8,276 nt of DNA from an uncultured Spongiibacteraceae bacterium (GTDB lineage: Bacteria; Pseudomonadota; Gammaproteobacteria; Pseudomonadales; Dasaniaceae), in assembly GCA_937969395.1 (NCBI GenBank), contig CALBVI010000351.1, positions 1 to 8,276 on the forward strand, given 5' to 3'. The position numbers and the translations under genes are program-made. The notes under the pieces were generated by a model. That model made no database searches, was not told the DNA's origin, and saw only the letters and a list, made by a program, of their open reading frames with translations. This document shows, piece by piece, positions 1-6,886 of the stretch. Numbering within the stretch: the stretch's first letter is position 1; each line of letters begins with the position of its first letter.

Positions 1-2092
1 CCAAAACAATGCCCAATCTACTGTAGAAGAAGTGATCGTCACTGCTGAATTTCGTGATAGTGAATTGATGAAGGCTGTTGGCAGTATTTCGGTCATTGAT
101 GAGACTGTTTTTCAACAGCGTGCTGCTCAGCACTTAGAAACCGTATTAAGTACAGCTCCCAATATTGATGTCGGCGGTGGTGGCTCTCGCGTTCGTTTTA
201 TTCAGATACGTGGCGTCGGTGATTTGGAGCAGTTCTCTGATCCTAAATACTATCCTTCAGTCGGTTTAATGTTGGATGATTTAGAGTTAGGTGATGCCGC
301 GAATGCCGGTATGTTGTTTGATATTGCGCAATTAGAAGTATTGCGTGGGCCGCAGGGTACTCGTCTAGGTGCAAGCGCCCATGCGGGAATGATTCAATTA
401 CGAGCTAATGAGCCTACCGATGAATTTGAAGGCCAAGTTAGCGCTGGATTAGGCAACGTTGATAGCTACAATGCCGGTTTAGTATTAAGTGGCCCTTTAA
501 GTAAGGAGCTTAAAGCACGTTTAGCGGTACAGACTAACCAAAGTGATGGTCATATCGAAAACGCCTTTCTTGGCCGTGACGATACCAATAACCTCGATGA
601 AGTGACAGCTAGGCTTAAATTGCAGTGGACGCCTTCCGAGAATGCACAATACGATCTGAGTCTGTTTTCATTTGATAGTGATAATGGCGCAGATACTTGG
701 TCATTAGATAATGATCGAGTGACGCACTCAGATCAGCCGGGTAGTGATGAGCAAGAAACCCTGGCAGTAACGTTAAAAGGCCAGTGGCAGTTGCAAGAGG
801 ATCAATCTTTATTGGCGATTGTGAGTCATACCGATAGCGATTTATCATTTAGTTATGATGCTGATTGGATCTCGGATGATTTTTGTGTCACTTATTTATG
901 TTCTTTTGGTAATGATACTGCACGTGAACTCTTTGAGCGTGATCGCGAAAAAACAACCGCTGACTTACGTTGGTTGAGTGGGCCAGATGCATTAACAGCG
1001 GGTCAAGCTCGTTATGTGCTGGGCGCCTACTTTAACGATAGTAGCGAAACGCTAAATTATAGTTACCCTAGTGTTTGGTATGGTGATTACGCTTCAGAAA
1101 GTGATTATGAAACTCGTCGCCAAGCTTTGTATGGTGAGTATGAATATGCCGCCACTAATCAATTGACGCTGTCTGTTGGTGTGCGTTCTGAGCGTTTTGA
1201 AGATGATTATTTAGATAGTAATGGTTTTGAATCAAATGATGATGCCAGTTATTTATTCAGTTCAGAATTTAGTGTCAAGTATCAGCTGGATGAGCAAACG
1301 TTAATTTATCTAACGCTTGCACGAAGTAATAAACCCGGTGGCGTCAATGTTTCTGCCAGTGCTCAGCAGGCTTATATGTCACCAGATTTTCAAACGTTTA
1401 CTGAAAATAAATTAAAATTTGGTGAAGAGCTTTTACGCAATAAAGAATTGGGTATTAAAACTCGACAGTTTGATCAGCGTTTAGCGATCCGTGCGGCTGT
1501 ATTTCATACTTCACGTGAGAATGCGCAGTTAGAAAACTGGATGTGGGATGACGCTGCTGGATTGTGGATTGGCTATTTGGATAGCACCAGCGATGCCAGT
1601 AGTTATGGTGTTGAGTTGGAAACCAGTTTTGAGGTCAATCAAACGCTACAAGTTTTTGCATCATTGGGTTGGTTAGAAACCAAAGTTGATAGCGTCGAAG
1701 TTTTCGATTTAGATTTGTGGGCGTTCGACACTAAATACGACCGTGATCAAGCAAAGGCGCCAAATTATCAATACAGTGTTGGCGCTAATATTATGTTGAC
1801 TGAACAGTTGTCAGGCACAATTTCAGTTGATGGTCGTGATGATAGTTACTTTGGTTATTATCATGATGGCGAGCTAGAAGGTTATAGCCTAGTGAATGCC
1901 AGCATTAATTATCAGTTAGATAATATTAGTATCACTGTGTGGGGACGTAATTTAGCGGATGAGGACTATACTGTGCATGGTTTGTATTTTGGTGCTGACC
2001 CGCGGGATAATTTTGGTGCTTGGGCTAATACAACGTATCTACAGTATGGTGAGCCAAGAACTTATGGTGTTAATGCTAGTTATTCATTTTAA
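1..2092 (+). CDS. TonB-dependent outer-membrane receptor, 5' end cut off by window edge; candidate thiamine receptor
   Basis: Active-transport receptor of the outer membrane, driven by TonB-ExbB-ExbD. The frame is open from base 2 to the TAA at 2090-2092 (696 visible residues). A GTG at 32 lies inside the TonB box and is not the real start: the codons before it read QNNAQSTVEE, which looks like the mature N-terminus just after signal-peptide cleavage. Only the signal peptide and start appear to be missing. The TonB box EEVIVTA is at 26-46. The plug domain follows, with its conserved LRGPQGTRLGAS-type motif near 340-375 and the IQLRANEPT strand near 390-418. The rest is a beta-barrel of alternating strands ending in the RNLADEDY motif (about 1945-1970) and a C-terminal aromatic strand, SYSF, expected for Bam recognition. 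Two cysteines (884-886 and 899-901) sit in a probable extracellular loop. The protein alone does not show its substrate. Thiamine is inferred from the downstream transporter, binding protein and kinase. Family assignment is near certain; substrate is moderate. Confidence 0.95.
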   Translation, partial: QNNAQSTVEEVIVTAEFRDSELMKAVGSISVIDETVFQQRAAQHLETVLSTAPNIDVGGGGSRVRFIQIRGVGDLEQFSDPKYYPSVGLMLDDLELGDAANAGMLFDIAQLEVLRGPQGTRLGASAHAGMIQLRANEPTDEFEGQVSAGLGNVDSYNAGLVLSGPLSKELKARLAVQTNQSDGHIENAFLGRDDTNNLDEVTARLKLQWTPSENAQYDLSLFSFDSDNGADTWSLDNDRVTHSDQPGSDEQETLAVTLKGQWQLQEDQSLLAIVSHTDSDLSFSYDADWISDDFCVTYLCSFGNDTARELFERDREKTTADLRWLSGPDALTAGQARYVLGAYFNDSSETLNYSYPSVWYGDYASESDYETRRQALYGEYEYAATNQLTLSVGVRSERFEDDYLDSNGFESNDDASYLFSSEFSVKYQLDEQTLIYLTLARSNKPGGVNVSASAQQAYMSPDFQTFTENKLKFGEELLRNKELGIKTRQFDQRLAIRAAVFHTSRENAQLENWMWDDAAGLWIGYLDSTSDASSYGVELETSFEVNQTLQVFASLGWLETKVDSVEVFDLDLWAFDTKYDRDQAKAPNYQYSVGANIMLTEQLSGTISVDGRDDSYFGYYHDGELEGYSLVNASINYQLDNISITVWGRNLADEDYTVHGLYFGADPRDNFGAWANTTYLQYGEPRTYGVNASYSF

Positions 2093-2150
2093 TCAGAAAC
2101 TGCGTGTTGATCATAGGTGACATCATTGCTGGGATTATAAGTCAGTAAAT

Positions 2151-2186
2151 AAAGAGGTTTGGGCGTATACGTTCAAACCTCTTTTT
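2151..2186 (+). terminator. Strong intrinsic terminator after the receptor gene
   Basis: An 11-bp perfect stem (AAAGAGGTTTG at 2151-2161 pairs with CAAACCTCTTT at 2174-2184) is extended inward by two G-T pairs and two C-G/G-C pairs to a TATA loop. It ends in a T run (2182-2186), part of which belongs to the stem. It lies 58 bases after the receptor stop codon. The A-rich left flank (AAATAAA) would give a T-rich tail on the other strand, so it might act in both directions. It separates the receptor transcript from the gene block that follows, at least partly. Confidence 0.88.
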
Positions 2187-2243
2187 ATAATATTAGTCCT
2201 AATGTTAGTGCTGAATGAATGTGGTACAAGGAATGACGAAGAA

Positions 2244-2249
2244 AAGGAG
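2244..2249 (+). promoter_or_regulatory. Ribosome binding site of the DUF885 lipoprotein gene
   Basis: AAGGAG followed by AGGG lies 11 bases before the ATG at 2261 and supports that start. It also confirms the lipoprotein signal sequence as the real N-terminus. Confidence 0.75.
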
Positions 2250-2260
2250 AGGGCATAAAT

Positions 2261-4111
2261 ATGATTCAATATGATTTAAAGCATCTATTAAAAAACGTAG
2301 CCAGTAAATGGCTATGTTTTTTTGCGATGGGGCTGCTTGTTCAATCTTGTACTGTTCAGAATACGCCAGTTCAAATATCAGAAAATGAAAAAGCGAAAAT
2401 ACTCTTTGACGTGATATTTGATGCCTCTGTTGCTCGTAGTCCAATGTGGGAAGGCTATCTTGGTATCTACGATAATAATGATCAGTGGGATAATATTTCC
2501 GAAGCGTATTCAGTTGAAAGTCTGGAGTTTACTAAGCAGCAGTTAAAAAAACTGAAAACTATCAATGTCGACAAACTCGATGCTGAGACACGTCTAAGTT
2601 ATTCCATATATGAAAAATCGCTGAATGATCAAATTAGCGATTTCAAATGGCGTCACCATAACTATCCCGTTAATCAAATGTTTGGTCTGCATTCACAGAT
2701 TCCGTCCTATTTAATTAATATTCATCAAGTAACAGCAGAGCAAGATCTCAATGCCTATATCAGTCGCTTAAATAAAATACCTCTGTTGTTTGACCAGCTG
2801 ATCGATGGTCTAGCTTTGCGTAAAGACAAAGGCATTATTGCGCCTAAGTTTGTATTTACTCATGTGATTCGCGATTCAGAAAATGTTATCTCTGGTTACC
2901 CTTTTGAAGAAGGTGCTGATAATACGTTGCTAGCTGACTTCAAAAAGAAACTAGCTGGATTAGAATTAGATGCAAAGAAAGAAAATGTTTTTATTGATGA
3001 TGCCGAGGCTGCATTAAAAAATGCCGTTGGTCCTGCGTATAAAAAACTTATACAGTACTTAGCTGCGCTTGAAGATGATGCGGATACTCGTGATGGTATT
3101 TGGAAGTTACCGCAAGGTGACGACTATTATCGTCGTGCGTTAGCAAGAACTACCACTACATCATTAACAGCAGATGAAATTCATAATATTGGTTTAACCG
3201 AAGTTGATCGCATTCATAATGAGATGCGAGCAATTATGCAGCAAGTTGATTTTGATGGCGATTTATCCGATTTCTTTGTTTTTATGCGAGACGATAAACA
3301 ATTTTACTATGAAGAAAGTGCAGAGGGTAAAGCTGCTTATCTCAACAAAGCTGTACAGCTGATTGAGGATATGAAAAATAATTTAGATAAATTGTTTTTG
3401 AGTAAGCCCGTAGCGGATATTACGGTTAAGGCAGTTGAGCCTTTTCGTGAGAAATCAGCAGGCAAGGCTTTTTATCAGCGGCCTGCGCCGGATGGCTCTC
3501 GTCCAGGTATTTATTATGCCAATCTTTATAAAATGTCAGATATGCCTAGCTATCAAATGGAGGCGCTTGCTTATCATGAAGGTATTCCCGGTCATCATAT
3601 GCAAATCAGTGTCGCGCAGGAAATAGAGAGCTTTCCAAAATTTAGAAAATATGGTGGATATACTGCTTATATCGAAGGCTGGGGTTTGTATTCTGAGTAC
3701 ATTCCCAAGGAAGTTGGTTTTTATAAGGATCCTTATTCAGATTTTGGTCGTCTGGCGATGGAGCTTTGGCGTGCATGCCGTCTAGTGGTTGATACCGGAC
3801 TGCATGAAAAGAAATGGACGCGACAGCAGGCGATTGACTATTTGGTCAAGAATACGCCGAATGCAGTCAATGATTCTACTAAAGCCATTGAGCGCTATAT
3901 TGTTATGCCATCTCAGGCCACCGCTTATAAAATTGGCATGTTGAAAATATTAGAGCTACGTTCTAAGGCCGAAAAAGCGTTAGGCGAACGTTATGATATT
4001 CGTGAATTTCATGACGTGGTTTTGAAAAATGGTCCGATGCCATTAGATGTCCTAGAGATGCTTGTTGATCAATGGATTGCCAAAAAGTTAACAGTTAAGA
4101 AAAATACTTAA
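2261..4111 (+). CDS. DUF885 family lipoprotein, predicted metallohydrolase
   Basis: A 616-residue DUF885 protein, about the usual family length. The N-terminus has basic residues, a hydrophobic run (about 18-27) and a lipobox LVQSC with Cys30 as the lipidation site. Thr at the next position fits outer-membrane sorting rather than inner-membrane retention. The C-terminal half carries the family signature: YYRRALARTTTT followed by a TADEIH..GL.EV segment, PGIYYANL, then HEGIPGHHMQ with His439, Glu440, His445 and His446, and EGWGLYSE with Glu472. These resemble the zinc ligands and catalytic Glu of gluzincin-type metallopeptidases, but the second His is six residues after the first, not four, so the exact ligands are inference. 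The substrate is unknown. It stands between the receptor (168 bases upstream, across a terminator) and the vitamin transporter (16 bases to its ATG). A periplasm-facing hydrolase here could release cargo before inner-membrane uptake, but nothing in the sequence proves that link. Confidence 0.9.
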   Translation: MIQYDLKHLLKNVASKWLCFFAMGLLVQSCTVQNTPVQISENEKAKILFDVIFDASVARSPMWEGYLGIYDNNDQWDNISEAYSVESLEFTKQQLKKLKTINVDKLDAETRLSYSIYEKSLNDQISDFKWRHHNYPVNQMFGLHSQIPSYLINIHQVTAEQDLNAYISRLNKIPLLFDQLIDGLALRKDKGIIAPKFVFTHVIRDSENVISGYPFEEGADNTLLADFKKKLAGLELDAKKENVFIDDAEAALKNAVGPAYKKLIQYLAALEDDADTRDGIWKLPQGDDYYRRALARTTTTSLTADEIHNIGLTEVDRIHNEMRAIMQQVDFDGDLSDFFVFMRDDKQFYYEESAEGKAAYLNKAVQLIEDMKNNLDKLFLSKPVADITVKAVEPFREKSAGKAFYQRPAPDGSRPGIYYANLYKMSDMPSYQMEALAYHEGIPGHHMQISVAQEIESFPKFRKYGGYTAYIEGWGLYSEYIPKEVGFYKDPYSDFGRLAMELWRACRLVVDTGLHEKKWTRQQAIDYLVKNTPNAVNDSTKAIERYIVMPSQATAYKIGMLKILELRSKAEKALGERYDIREFHDVVLKNGPMPLDVLEMLVDQWIAKKLTVKKNT

Positions 4112-4127
4112 AAGGTCTGTGTACTTA

Positions 4128-4718
4128 ATGTCTACTGCATTAACGATTGAAATTTTAGCAACAATTGCCAACTTGGCGTATTTGGTTTTTCTTATTCAAG
4201 AAAAAATCATTTGCTGGTCTTTTGGTATTGTCGGTTCTCTGTTGAGTATTTATTTATTTGTTGATGTGAAGCTATATTCGGAGGCTGTACTTTATAGCTA
4301 CTACGTTATTGTCGGTATTTGGGGATGGATTTATTGGCATAAAAAAGATGTCGATAATAGTAATTTGATTATTAGTTGGCAGCTGTCTGCGCATTTAGTG
4401 ACTATTTTAGTGGCTGTTAGTATCGGTTTAGTCGGCGGTTATATTTTCAATAATTATACTGACTCTGAGCGCAGTTATATTGATGCGTTGACAACAACGT
4501 TTAGTTTTATTGCTACTTACTTAGAAGTAAAAAAAGTGCGTGAATCTTGGTTTTACTGGATTGTTATCAATGCGGTCACTATTTGGCTATACCAAGATCG
4601 CTCATTAGATATTTATGCAGGATTGATAGGCATTTATACCGTTATGTCTGTATGGGGTCTGGTGCGTTGGTGGAAGGTCTATCAGCAACGATTAATCAAT
4701 GTCGAGTTAAAAGTCTAA
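4128..4718 (+). CDS. pnuC: PnuC/PnuT-family vitamin transporter, probably for thiamine (PnuT)
   Basis: Inner-membrane facilitator of the PnuC family (nicotinamide riboside in PnuC, thiamine in PnuT). The protein has 196 residues and seven hydrophobic segments at about 5-23, 30-45, 51-70, 88-107, 118-134, 141-156 and 161-182, matching the seven-helix, SWEET-like PnuC fold. Family marks include WSFGIVGS (30-37), YSEAVLYSYYVIVGIWGW (50-67), the acidic-aromatic ESWFYW patch (139-144) and the Trp-rich GLVRWW end (177-182). I chose ATG 4128 over the in-frame GTG 4119: AAAGGT at 4111-4116 lies 11 bases before the ATG but only 2 before the GTG. Family members move substrate by facilitated diffusion and depend on intracellular phosphorylation to trap it, which the kinase two genes downstream could do. 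An automated pipeline would probably name it a nicotinamide riboside transporter. The adjacent thiamine-binding protein argues for thiamine. No NadR-like gene is present. Confidence 0.9.
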   Translation: MSTALTIEILATIANLAYLVFLIQEKIICWSFGIVGSLLSIYLFVDVKLYSEAVLYSYYVIVGIWGWIYWHKKDVDNSNLIISWQLSAHLVTILVAVSIGLVGGYIFNNYTDSERSYIDALTTTFSFIATYLEVKKVRESWFYWIVINAVTIWLYQDRSLDIYAGLIGIYTVMSVWGLVRWWKVYQQRLINVELKV

Positions 4719-4771
4719 ACGAGTAAGTAGATTAGATAAGCAATTTTATATACGTTTTTATTATTTTCTTT

Positions 4772-4776
4772 AGGAG
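4772..4776 (+). promoter_or_regulatory. Ribosome binding site of the small thiamine-binding protein gene
   Basis: AGGAG lies six bases before ATG 4783, an ideal spacing. This is the best-placed Shine-Dalgarno sequence in the window, suggesting efficient translation of this small protein. The upstream gap 4719-4782 is AT-rich and shows no convincing promoter or hairpin. Confidence 0.8.
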
Positions 4777-4782
4777 TGAAAT

Positions 4783-5031
4783 ATGGAGCTGTCCGTTGAG
4801 GTGAGTTTGTACCCATTACAACAAGAGTATATTCCCGTTATCCAAGCGTTTATTGATCGAGTTAATAGCTATGATGGATTGACGGTTATTACTAACGACA
4901 TGAGTACACAGTTGTTTGGTGATTACGAATTGATTATGGATGTAATGCGCGATGAAATGCGTAAATCCTTCGAGAAGTATGGCCGCTCGATATTTGTTTG
5001 TAAATTCATTGACAGTAATCTGCACCAATAA
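4783..5031 (+). CDS. Single-domain thiamine-binding protein (YkoF/MTH1187 family)
   Basis: An 82-residue soluble protein with no signal peptide or membrane segment, so cytoplasmic. It matches the thiamine-binding YkoF/MTH1187/YqgV superfamily, a ferredoxin-like beta-alpha-beta fold. VEVSLYPL (5-12) forms the first strand, a helix follows (about 16-29), and TVITNDMSTQLFGDYELIMD (34-53) carries the family TN.MST..G.Y signature. A second helix (about 53-66) and a last strand, SIFVCKFI (69-76), complete the fold. B. subtilis YkoF contains two such domains and binds thiamine or its pyrimidine part (HMP); single-domain members oligomerise. Here it lies between a PnuC-type transporter (64-base gap) and a kinase (6-base gap), which supports a role in holding or passing thiamine. 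It is the strongest single clue to the substrate of the locus. A delivery role to the kinase is inference. Confidence 0.85.
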   Translation: MELSVEVSLYPLQQEYIPVIQAFIDRVNSYDGLTVITNDMSTQLFGDYELIMDVMRDEMRKSFEKYGRSIFVCKFIDSNLHQ

Positions 5032-5037
5032 ATTATT

Positions 5038-5934
5038 ATGCTATTGACCTCGGTAGAACAGGAGCGATTGCGACTAGCCTTAATTTTTTGTGATGAAAAA
5101 TTGAGCGGATCGGTCAGTGGTACTGCGAAAGTGGTTAAAAACTTTGGCAGTGGCCTCACTAATAAAAGCTATTTAGTGATAATTAATAATCAGCACTATG
5201 TACTTAGACTAAATGCGGTGAACAGCCTGGATTTAGGTATTTGTCGAGATAGGGAACGTCAAATTCATCAGGGTGCCTATGCTCAAGATTTGGCGCCTGA
5301 AATTGTTTTGTTTTCTGCAGAGCATGAGTTGCTGCTTACTCGATACATCGAAGGACAAAGTTTCTCGGCTGAAGACTTTTCTTGCCCCGAGCGTTTGTCA
5401 CTTATAGCTGGTTTTTTATCTAAAATCCACCAGCTTGAGGCTGTAGAGGACTCCTTGGATCTAATAAAGCATGTTGGTAATTATTTAAACCGCATAGTTG
5501 ATTTAGATTTGAAAGCCGCTTTATTGATTTACAAAGAAGCTATCGTTGAATTGCTAGCGGTTGATAGTCTGATGCCCAGAAGTATTTGTCACAATGATTT
5601 ATTGGCCGATAATTTTTTACTGCTTGAAAGTGGTAATTTGATAGCGTTGGATTGGGAATATGCCTCGGTTGGTAACCCATTATTTGATTTGGCCGTTATT
5701 ATTGAATCGCAAACTATTAATGATGCCGGTCAAATGATTTTATTGCAGGCAATGGTAGAAGGTCATGGTAAGAGTGTTGACGCCTTATCCGTAGAGTTAA
5801 AATCGCAAAGAATAATTTATCGCTATATAGAGCTTCTATGGTTTGCTGTTCAGTATGGGCATGCACCAGAAAGTATTATGTATGGGCTTATCAAACAAAA
5901 ACAAAATGAATTGGCAGCGTTTTTTTGTGAATAG
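5038..5934 (+). CDS. APH/choline kinase-fold small-molecule kinase, likely thiamine kinase (ThiK-like)
   Basis: A 298-residue cytoplasmic kinase of the aminoglycoside phosphotransferase / choline kinase fold. E. coli ThiK, at about 270 residues, is similar in size and type. The nucleotide loop is FGSGLTNKSYLV (36-47), the common G-LTN form. The next strand, YVLRLNA (54-60), has Arg57 near where classical kinases have lysine. The catalytic (Brenner) loop is HNDLLADNFL (185-194), with Asp187 as likely base and Asn192 as metal ligand. The metal-binding motif is DWEY (205-208), followed by GNPLFDLA. Its ATG follows the upstream stop codon by six bases and has no Shine-Dalgarno sequence, so translation is probably coupled. 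In this context it would convert thiamine to thiamine monophosphate and so trap it. ThiL elsewhere would be needed to reach thiamine pyrophosphate. Kinase fold is secure; thiamine specificity is inferred from neighbours, and choline or another alcohol cannot be excluded. Confidence 0.9.
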   Translation: MLLTSVEQERLRLALIFCDEKLSGSVSGTAKVVKNFGSGLTNKSYLVIINNQHYVLRLNAVNSLDLGICRDRERQIHQGAYAQDLAPEIVLFSAEHELLLTRYIEGQSFSAEDFSCPERLSLIAGFLSKIHQLEAVEDSLDLIKHVGNYLNRIVDLDLKAALLIYKEAIVELLAVDSLMPRSICHNDLLADNFLLLESGNLIALDWEYASVGNPLFDLAVIIESQTINDAGQMILLQAMVEGHGKSVDALSVELKSQRIIYRYIELLWFAVQYGHAPESIMYGLIKQKQNELAAFFCE

Positions 5935-5950
5935 CATTGTTGATTTAATA

Positions 5951-6886
5951 ATGCGTCATCAACGTAGTTTTCTGTTGGCGATGATTGCTTTGTTGTTTGT
6001 TCTTTTTTTTGCCGGCGGTCCTGGTTTATATTCTCTCCGTTCTATTAAATATGCCTGGAATTTTGGTCATATTATTTTCTTCTGTTTGTTAGTAGGTTTT
6101 TTACTTTCTGAATTTAAACTGTTAATAACACGGCCTTTGTTGCAGCAGTTAGCGTTGATATTATTGATGAGCGTTGTTGTTGGCGGTAGTGTTGAGCTTA
6201 TTCAGTCGGGCTTATCTCGAAACCCTGATTTAGGTGATATGTGGCGTAATGCCATTGGCGCTTTGCTGGGTTTTGTATTGTTCTCTAGGGCGAGAGTTAA
6301 ATGGTCTTTGATTAGTTATTCTTTATCTGTCGCTGTTGTTCTTATACTTATAGCTTTTCAGGTTAAGCCTTTATTGATATTTCTTGTTGATGAGGCTGCG
6401 GCCCGCAAAGAATTTCCATTGTTAAGTAGTTTTGAACATGATCGTGAGCTTTCTCGTTTTGATGGTAGTGCTGATTATTCGTTTTCTGAAGTGCGCTCGG
6501 TAGACGGTGTTCGATCTTTAAAGGTGATAACTGATTTAAAGCGCTTCTCGGGTATAAGTTTAAAAAACTTTCCTAGAGATTGGTCCGGTTATGGACAGCT
6601 TAAATTTGATATTTACTCAGTTGCAGAAGAAAATATTGAGCTAATAGTTCGTATTAATGATGTGACACATGGGTATCGGCGTCGGCAGCGCTATGACGAC
6701 CGTTTTAATCACATGTTCGTTTTGCAGTCCGGTTGGAATGAGGTGGATATCAATTTGTCTGAAGTAGAATCAGCGCCTGTAAAACGTAGTATGAACATGG
6801 CTGATATAGAACGAGTGGAGTTTTTTGTTACTAGCGAGCCCGCAGTTCGAACGTTTTATCTTGATCACCTACGATTGTTGCCATAA
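5951..6886 (+). CDS. VanZ-like membrane protein with C-terminal extracytoplasmic beta-rich domain
   Basis: A 311-residue protein of two parts. Residues 1-140 hold about five hydrophobic segments (about 6-22, 38-53, 63-80, 98-113, 118-137) and the VanZ signature: ELIQ (82-85), then RNPDLGDMWRNAIGALLG (90-107) with Asp93, Asp96 and Asn100. Residues about 155-311 are soluble, rich in predicted strands and aromatics (FPRDWSGYGQLKFDIY, GWNEVDINLS, YLDHLRLL). They resemble the jelly-roll carbohydrate-binding modules often appended to bacterial surface proteins, though I cannot name the family. I chose ATG 5951, 16 bases after the kinase stop, because it starts directly before the first membrane helix with a basic MRHQR lead. 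The frame is open further upstream (GTG 5927, ATG 5906, ATG 5843, the last two inside the kinase gene), and no candidate has a clear ribosome binding site. VanZ proteins have poorly known roles in envelope biology and glycopeptide resistance. A part in thiamine uptake is not supported. Confidence 0.8.
   Translation: MRHQRSFLLAMIALLFVLFFAGGPGLYSLRSIKYAWNFGHIIFFCLLVGFLLSEFKLLITRPLLQQLALILLMSVVVGGSVELIQSGLSRNPDLGDMWRNAIGALLGFVLFSRARVKWSLISYSLSVAVVLILIAFQVKPLLIFLVDEAAARKEFPLLSSFEHDRELSRFDGSADYSFSEVRSVDGVRSLKVITDLKRFSGISLKNFPRDWSGYGQLKFDIYSVAEENIELIVRINDVTHGYRRRQRYDDRFNHMFVLQSGWNEVDINLSEVESAPVKRSMNMADIERVEFFVTSEPAVRTFYLDHLRLLP

Follow-up and report, generated by a model that had tools for sequence, protein, structure and literature searches.

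A predicted thiamine uptake-and-trap cluster with a PnuT-type transporter, a single-domain YkoF-family protein and a ThiK-like kinase in a Spongiibacteraceae genome

Bacterial uptake systems that pair PnuC with NadR handle nicotinamide riboside (NR) by a logic of trapping through phosphorylation, and PnuT, of the same transporter family, is said to work by facilitated diffusion. Closest to the subject of this report are the thiamine systems of the Bacteroidetes. According to PMC5613172, OMthi (BT2390) and pnuT-tnr3 (BT2396-BT2397) of Bacteroides thetaiotaomicron lie behind thiamine pyrophosphate (TPP) riboswitches; mutants deficient in both synthesis and one transporter had a roughly tenfold higher thiamine requirement, while single transporter mutants had no defect. 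TonB-dependent receptors of the Omr1 type are co-localised with PnuT (PMC2771747), and omr1 has been placed near a TPP/TDP (thiamine diphosphate) riboswitch in clusters of SAR86 and Flavobacteriales (PMC10881298). Here we consider contig C351 (CALBVI010000351.1) from an uncultured Spongiibacteraceae bacterium, a stretch of 8276 bases that was analysed whole and is called the window. Judged from sequence comparison, it appears to hold a thiamine uptake-and-trap cluster, a reading to which we assign a probability of about 84%.

Thiamine would cross the outer membrane through a TonB-dependent receptor and reach the cytosol by diffusion through a PnuC-family transporter; a ThiK-like kinase would there convert it to thiamine monophosphate, a form in which it could not leave the cell. 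ThiL, encoded elsewhere in the genome, would then make TPP. We infer both the substrate at every step and the product of the kinase. The original prediction had named four families, namely receptor, PnuC-type transporter, single-domain thiamine-binding protein and kinase, in this order on one strand. All of this was confirmed, and a DUF885 gene between receptor and transporter had been overlooked. The description of the route as complete holds for the presence of the four families; the receptor gene is truncated, and the series is broken by the DUF885 gene and by a terminator-like hairpin (Table 1).

That clusters of a receptor, pnuT and a thiamine-phosphorylating enzyme were already known, as had been stated, is borne out by OMthi and pnuT-tnr3 (PMC5613172). 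The Bacteroidetes loci share with the present one a TonB-type receptor, PnuT and a thiamine-phosphorylating enzyme behind TPP riboswitches. Their enzyme is Tnr3, whereas here an APH-fold, ThiK-like kinase is predicted to make the monophosphate, thiL is found elsewhere and the search for a thiamine pyrophosphokinase was negative; the present cluster also has a YkoF-type protein, and the interruptions just described are further differences. No YkoF-kinase pair is mentioned with Omr1-type receptors in the available portions of PMC2771747 and PMC10881298. The ThiK protein of Escherichia coli (YcfN) likewise has the APH fold; its gene is flanked by lpoB and nagZ and is not part of a transport locus. 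YkoF of Bacillus subtilis belongs to an ECF (energy-coupling factor)-type transport operon, while the window protein of the same family and fold stands beside a PnuC-family transporter and a kinase; B. subtilis YkoF has a tandem layout, with two matched stretches corresponding to two domains, and the window protein has one domain. PnuC-NadR systems use the same transporter family, but they fall outside the clade of the window transporter, have a NadR-like partner and lack a TPP riboswitch in 20 of 20 loci. The uptake scheme is thus known, and the use of a ThiK-like kinase with a single-domain YkoF protein is a variant that we did not find described; no account of a PnuT-YkoF-ThiK cluster turned up in the literature searched, and an earlier description may exist elsewhere.

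Since the contig starts within the receptor gene, the question of a riboswitch was addressed through relatives. We compared 110 PnuC loci, of which 106 came from genomes of the order to which the window belongs and four were named loci. Ten of the 115 genomes with a PnuC match (that of the window included) were excluded for split, partial or weak matches (G063, G135, G159, G170, G180, G195, G210, G218, G237 and G267); from the 12 named loci we removed L061, a duplicate of L037, and L065-L071, which are distant matches (23-27%). A TPP element together with an upstream receptor on the same strand occurs in 68 of the 110 loci (64 from the order and four named gammaproteobacterial records). Within these 68 the kinase is present in 58, the YkoF-type protein in 53 and a NadR-like gene in none. 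The NadR-like gene adjoins PnuC in 20 loci, none of which has a TPP element, a cassette kinase or YkoF. The remaining 22, with neither TPP element nor NadR, comprise 14 with a kinase or YkoF, several of them cut by contig ends, and eight that are unlabelled. When the count is limited to the 100 loci that have 3 kb or more of upstream sequence, 66 have the TPP element and receptor (57 of these with the kinase, 52 with kinase and YkoF) and 18 have NadR. The riboswitch status of L051 rests on a single scan.

The TPP elements of the relatives lie at the 5' side of the receptor, about 2.2-3.1 kb upstream of the transporter. A TPP riboswitch precedes the TonB receptor in all ten other members of the transporter clade described below (clade A), so that the riboswitch expected upstream of the receptor is found in the relatives. 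All five named loci whose transporter is of the same kind as that of the window (L060-L064, among them Pseudohalioglobus lutimaris, L060, and Pseudomaricurvus sp. HS19, L064) carry the element at 72-86 bits. Of the 60 loci with YkoF, 59 have it ahead of the transporter; it follows only in L064, as it does in the window. An NR-type counterpart is seen in family f21, where nine of the 12 loci read (L057, L135, L137, L140, L142, L143, L145, L146 and L147) have a NadR-like gene immediately 3' of PnuC.

The transporter tree has 112 rows, which include E. coli PnuC and no characterised PnuT. It places the window transporter in the 11-row clade A (100/100), the other ten members of which are all TPP-linked. 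Clade A and a larger group linked to TPP, kinase or YkoF together form an 84-row clade (100/97); it leaves out every one of the 20 NadR-adjacent rows, as well as E. coli PnuC and seven of the eight unlabelled rows. Identity between clade-A transporters and the same-genus type is about 35%. End branches are long for E. coli PnuC, L056 and L150, among others, and that of the window (0.84) is not. As evidence separate from the tree, residues Glu55, His92, Thr125, Thr133, Tyr146 and Arg161 (window numbering) are in the majority in both TPP-linked groups, of 11 and 72 rows, and occur in under a quarter of the 21 NadR and E. coli rows, in a comparison that left out the eight rows without a label. 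Positions 21, 124 and 154 show the same contrast, but there the window differs from the TPP-type majority or the group itself is variable. Tree, context and residues agree with the earlier view that the transporter is a PnuT and not an NR-transporting PnuC, there being no clustering with the NR type; we place it with the TPP-linked kind, for which thiamine is the predicted substrate, and not with the NadR-linked kind.

The wider genomes are consistent with such a route. ThiL is encoded in 57 of 57 genomes, 56 of them over the cut-off, and in that of the window at 313 bits. Thiamine pyrophosphokinase (TIGR01378) was found in none of the 57, with the window genome 64% complete, and the model was positive in seven of 14 controls. 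Salvage of thiamine therefore likely needs a thiamine kinase and then ThiL. NadR did not exceed its strict cut-off in any of the 57 genomes, a level that only two of 14 controls reach, and the best match in the window genome scores 31.9 bits and covers positions 3-74 of the 325 in the model. A check of the genome for thiL, thiC and nadR, proposed with the original prediction, gave thiL, a thiC operon on contig C174 and no NadR over the cut-off.

In further support, thiC was not found in 14 of 19 genomes that carry the cassette compared with four of 38 that do not (Fisher p = 2.9e-6); with one genome per family the association has p = 3e-4, relatedness not being otherwise corrected. Carriers were listed by hand on the basis of a TPP element, a cassette kinase, or YkoF plus kinase beside the transporter, and G021, G039, G040 and G051 were counted although they have no visible TPP element. 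G049 was scored as a non-carrier; if it is taken as a carrier the counts become 15 of 20 and three of 37. Its cassette appears to be split: C3 has a YkoF-linked transporter, and C5 has a TPP element, a receptor reading frame and then a kinase (L056, L034). Five further clade-A genomes without a linked kinase also yielded no thiC (5/5).

The YkoF-type protein has no signal peptide (by eye), and its AlphaFold model has a pLDDT of 93.8. The fold matches are SP2199, MJ1052, TM0486 and MTH1187 (2ibo, 1vk8, 1lxn), which are structures of the thiamine-binding family; YkoF itself (1s99) ranks 18th, with an E value of 1.6e-3. A family profile made from the window protein and 34 of the 60 found retrieves B. 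subtilis YkoF first (1s7h/1s99). The protein may buffer thiamine in the cytosol or pass it to the kinase. Our more specific suggestion, of a cytosolic hand-off factor between the PnuT facilitator and the kinase, in which a separable YkoF-kinase module has been joined, in the window, to a different transporter lineage behind a DUF885 gene, is tentative and rather doubtful. If true, the hand-off would add a third, soluble component to the scheme in which thiamine diffuses in, is phosphorylated and is trapped.

The kinase was aligned with 29 of the 70 cassette kinases found. All 30 sequences match both the ThiK and the GntI models with E values of 1e-10 or better, and a comparison of cassette kinases with E. 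coli ThiK by hhalign gave a probability of 99.1. His185, Asp187 and Asp205, which we take to be the APH catalytic residues, are invariant among the 30. A search for viral copies of the kinase confirmed none.

Several observations weigh against the uptake-and-trap proposal. The window itself shows no riboswitch; no Rfam family matched inside it, and the only TPP riboswitch found in its genome is upstream of thiC. Together with the terminator-like hairpin after the receptor, the missing riboswitch makes TPP control of the transporter a presumption here. The stem of clade A is long (3.2 changes per column), and the joining of this clade to the other TPP-linked rows could therefore be partly a long-branch effect. 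The NCBIfam model TIGR01528, entitled nicotinamide riboside transporter, matches the window transporter at 83.3 bits against a cut-off of 42.45, and the only solved relative of the transporter that we found is the NR transporter 4qtn. Uptake of NR with a kinase other than NadR would explain both, yet the tree, the context and the residues oppose it, and NadR was over the cut-off in none of the 57 genomes by the same strict measure; NR transport was rejected on the first three grounds, and we regard this alternative as scarcely credible. The transporter of L062 (7232-7846) also exceeds the curated cut-off of TIGR01528. Since the model passes its cut-off on two of the two proteins tested, public annotation probably gives TPP-linked PnuT proteins the wrong name.

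The kinase presents a similar difficulty. It scores 99.5 bits against the ThiK model TIGR02721, far from the cut-off of 299.45, and 141.6 bits against GntI, which is above its ThiK score and under the cut-off of 357. Identity between the window sequence and the 29 aligned cassette kinases is low, at 19-31%. Its nearest solved structures are LicA-type choline kinases, as is the nearest match to the structure model (pLDDT 92.5). This last point would suit a system for choline, or another quaternary amine, with a choline kinase. Such a system is very improbable, given that the 58 kinase-bearing loci are linked to TPP riboswitches, that the kinase has a YkoF partner and that no alternative thiamine pyrophosphokinase was found. 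With the ThiK cut-off not reached and LicA the nearest structure, we do not file the enzyme as ThiK; ThiK-like work is predicted from its context. The proposed ThiK-type kinase is therefore retained in part: a monophosphate-making activity fits the presence of thiL and the lack of any thiamine pyrophosphokinase match in the 57 genomes, and a strict assignment to ThiK fails.

The genome of the window, unlike most of the carriers, has a thiamine biosynthesis operon, on C174, that comprises a TPP element, thiC, a gene for a thiO-like FAD oxidoreductase, thiG and a fused thiD-thiE. Together with the uptake cluster this suggests that the organism likely both makes and scavenges thiamine. The clade-A genome G018 (L037) has the TPP element, receptor and transporter, with no thiC, no thiamine pyrophosphokinase and no clear cassette kinase (best 76.6 bits), and trapping there is unexplained. 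Also on this side of the balance is the idea that hydroxymethylpyrimidine (HMP) and not intact thiamine is imported, the YkoF-type protein and the kinase acting on HMP. Most carriers lack thiC, the HMP-making enzyme, and HMP would rescue them as well; a reference title calls B. subtilis YkoF a thiamin/HMP-binding protein, and the TPP riboswitch cannot discriminate between thiamine and HMP. Nevertheless, we consider HMP import quite unlikely. HMP is phosphorylated by ThiD, by general knowledge of the pathway, which would make an additional kinase superfluous, and the matches of the cassette kinase are to APH and to ThiK models and not to the ThiD family. Moreover, PMC5613172 reports that loss of pnuT in a non-synthesising strain of B. 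thetaiotaomicron raised the need for thiamine about tenfold, loss of pnuT alone having no effect.

A terminator-like hairpin separates the receptor from the remaining genes of the cluster. None of 200 shuffles was as good. It was spotted by reading the gap between the receptor and DUF885 genes and not by a terminator scan; the general scan of the window gave 12 candidates against 6.2 in shuffles, without the hairpin at 2151 among them, and the promoter scan of the window did not do better than shuffled sequence (26 against 24.4 on average). In our own scan of relatives, in which loci with fewer than 15 bases between genes were scored as without, a similar terminator lies between the receptor and the next gene in two of 68 cassettes. 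Because so strong a terminator-like hairpin follows the receptor, the receptor and the DUF885-transporter-YkoF-kinase series would be separate transcripts, and the window probably consists of two transcription units, with the receptor on a transcript of its own in this genome. The same hairpin could mean that two unrelated groups of genes are neighbours here, the receptor and DUF885 serving the uptake of peptides or something else and only transporter, YkoF and kinase being concerned with thiamine; in none of the other cassette loci read does DUF885 stand between receptor and transporter, which also speaks for such an arrangement. It is unlikely in our view. The window receptor groups with receptors that immediately follow TPP riboswitches and adjoin clade-A transporters, with 63% identity to that of L063, and DUF885 was not found beside those clade-A receptors.

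The thiamine cluster of the window seems to be of mixed ancestry. Its receptor and transporter are closest to clade A, whereas the YkoF-type protein is 71% identical to those of same-genus cassettes; for the kinase (up to 36%) and the VanZ-like gene, too, the closest matches are in those cassettes. Among the ten other clade-A loci, nine have the transporter without a linked kinase or YkoF. Each of the five clade-A genomes without a linked kinase that were searched (G113, G184, G204, G242 and G261) has one strong cassette-type kinase (216-239 bits) on another contig, directly behind a YkoF-type gene in four of the five; no TPP element was seen in the approximately 3.8 kb read around these kinases. 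From this pattern we infer that a YkoF-kinase module and a receptor-transporter module have been joined anew in the window.

The origin of the contig itself was also considered. A chimera was rejected on G+C content, which is smooth at 0.35-0.45 with no step at the borders of the DUF885 gene; exclusion at the level of reads was not possible.

Table 1. Features of the window, in order along the contig.
Feature	Position	Strand	Evidence
TonB-dependent outer-membrane receptor, 5'-truncated by the contig start; predicted thiamine receptor	2-2092	+	PF00593 88.5 bits, PF07715 50.1 bits
Intrinsic terminator-like hairpin with T-run, 3' of the receptor	2151-2186	+	-20.5 kcal/mol, z -5.47
DUF885 protein, 616 aa	2261-4111	+	PF05960 619.7 bits
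PnuC-family (NMN_transporter) transporter, TPP-linked (PnuT) clade	4119-4718	+	PF04973 147.4 bits (cut-off 27.3); tree; residues
Single-domain YkoF-family protein, 82 aa; predicted cytosolic thiamine binder	4783-5031	+	PF07615 26.1 bits (cut-off 21)
APH-fold (APH/choline-kinase-like) kinase; predicted thiamine kinase (ThiK-like)	5038-5934	+	PF01636 70.0 bits; TIGR02721 99.5 bits, below cut-off
VanZ-like membrane protein	5936-6886	+	PF04892 26.0 bits, under the Pfam cut-off of 30.1
TauE-family protein, then phosphatidylserine decarboxylase truncated by the contig end	right of the VanZ-like gene	-	

The DUF885 gene ends seven bases ahead of the listed GTG start of the transporter, for which there is also an ATG at 4128. 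The protein has a lipobox-like LVQSC motif near its N-terminus (by eye), and its solved relatives are 3o0y and 3u24 (described as a lipoprotein) and 3iuk; it may be a metallopeptidase. Homologues with E values of 1e-100 or better are present in 67 of 293 genomes. Within the stretches read for the 110 loci, DUF885 lies near the cassette only in L083 (5924-6958) and L084 (1-1066), which are of one genus; there it is divergent beside the TPP element, and the genomes concerned (G164 and G262) have two neighbouring DUF885 genes each. The two occurrences beside thiamine cassettes, in the window and in this genus, may reflect chance or a functional link. With so few cases we built no mechanism on DUF885, and it is taken as a passenger until shown otherwise. 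The VanZ-like gene directly follows the kinase in the window and in three of three same-genus cassette loci (L039, L041 and L048). PADLOC gave no match for the DUF885 or the VanZ-like gene, and a defence role was rejected. Two clade-A loci, L037 (7188-7979) and L060 (7152-7952), have an opposite-strand 2OG-Fe(II) oxygenase gene between receptor and transporter.

Trapping by a facilitator and an enzyme is known for PnuC with NadR and for PnuT with Tnr3. The 68 loci with a TPP element and receptor mostly use an APH-fold kinase, which would go no further than the monophosphate, and a small protein of the thiamine-binding family. The cassette goes with the absence of thiC, and finding it in a genome of these bacteria may on that account mark the organism as a vitamin B1 auxotroph. 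In addition, the cluster permits a direct test of the contribution that a soluble vitamin-binding protein makes to a passive facilitator.

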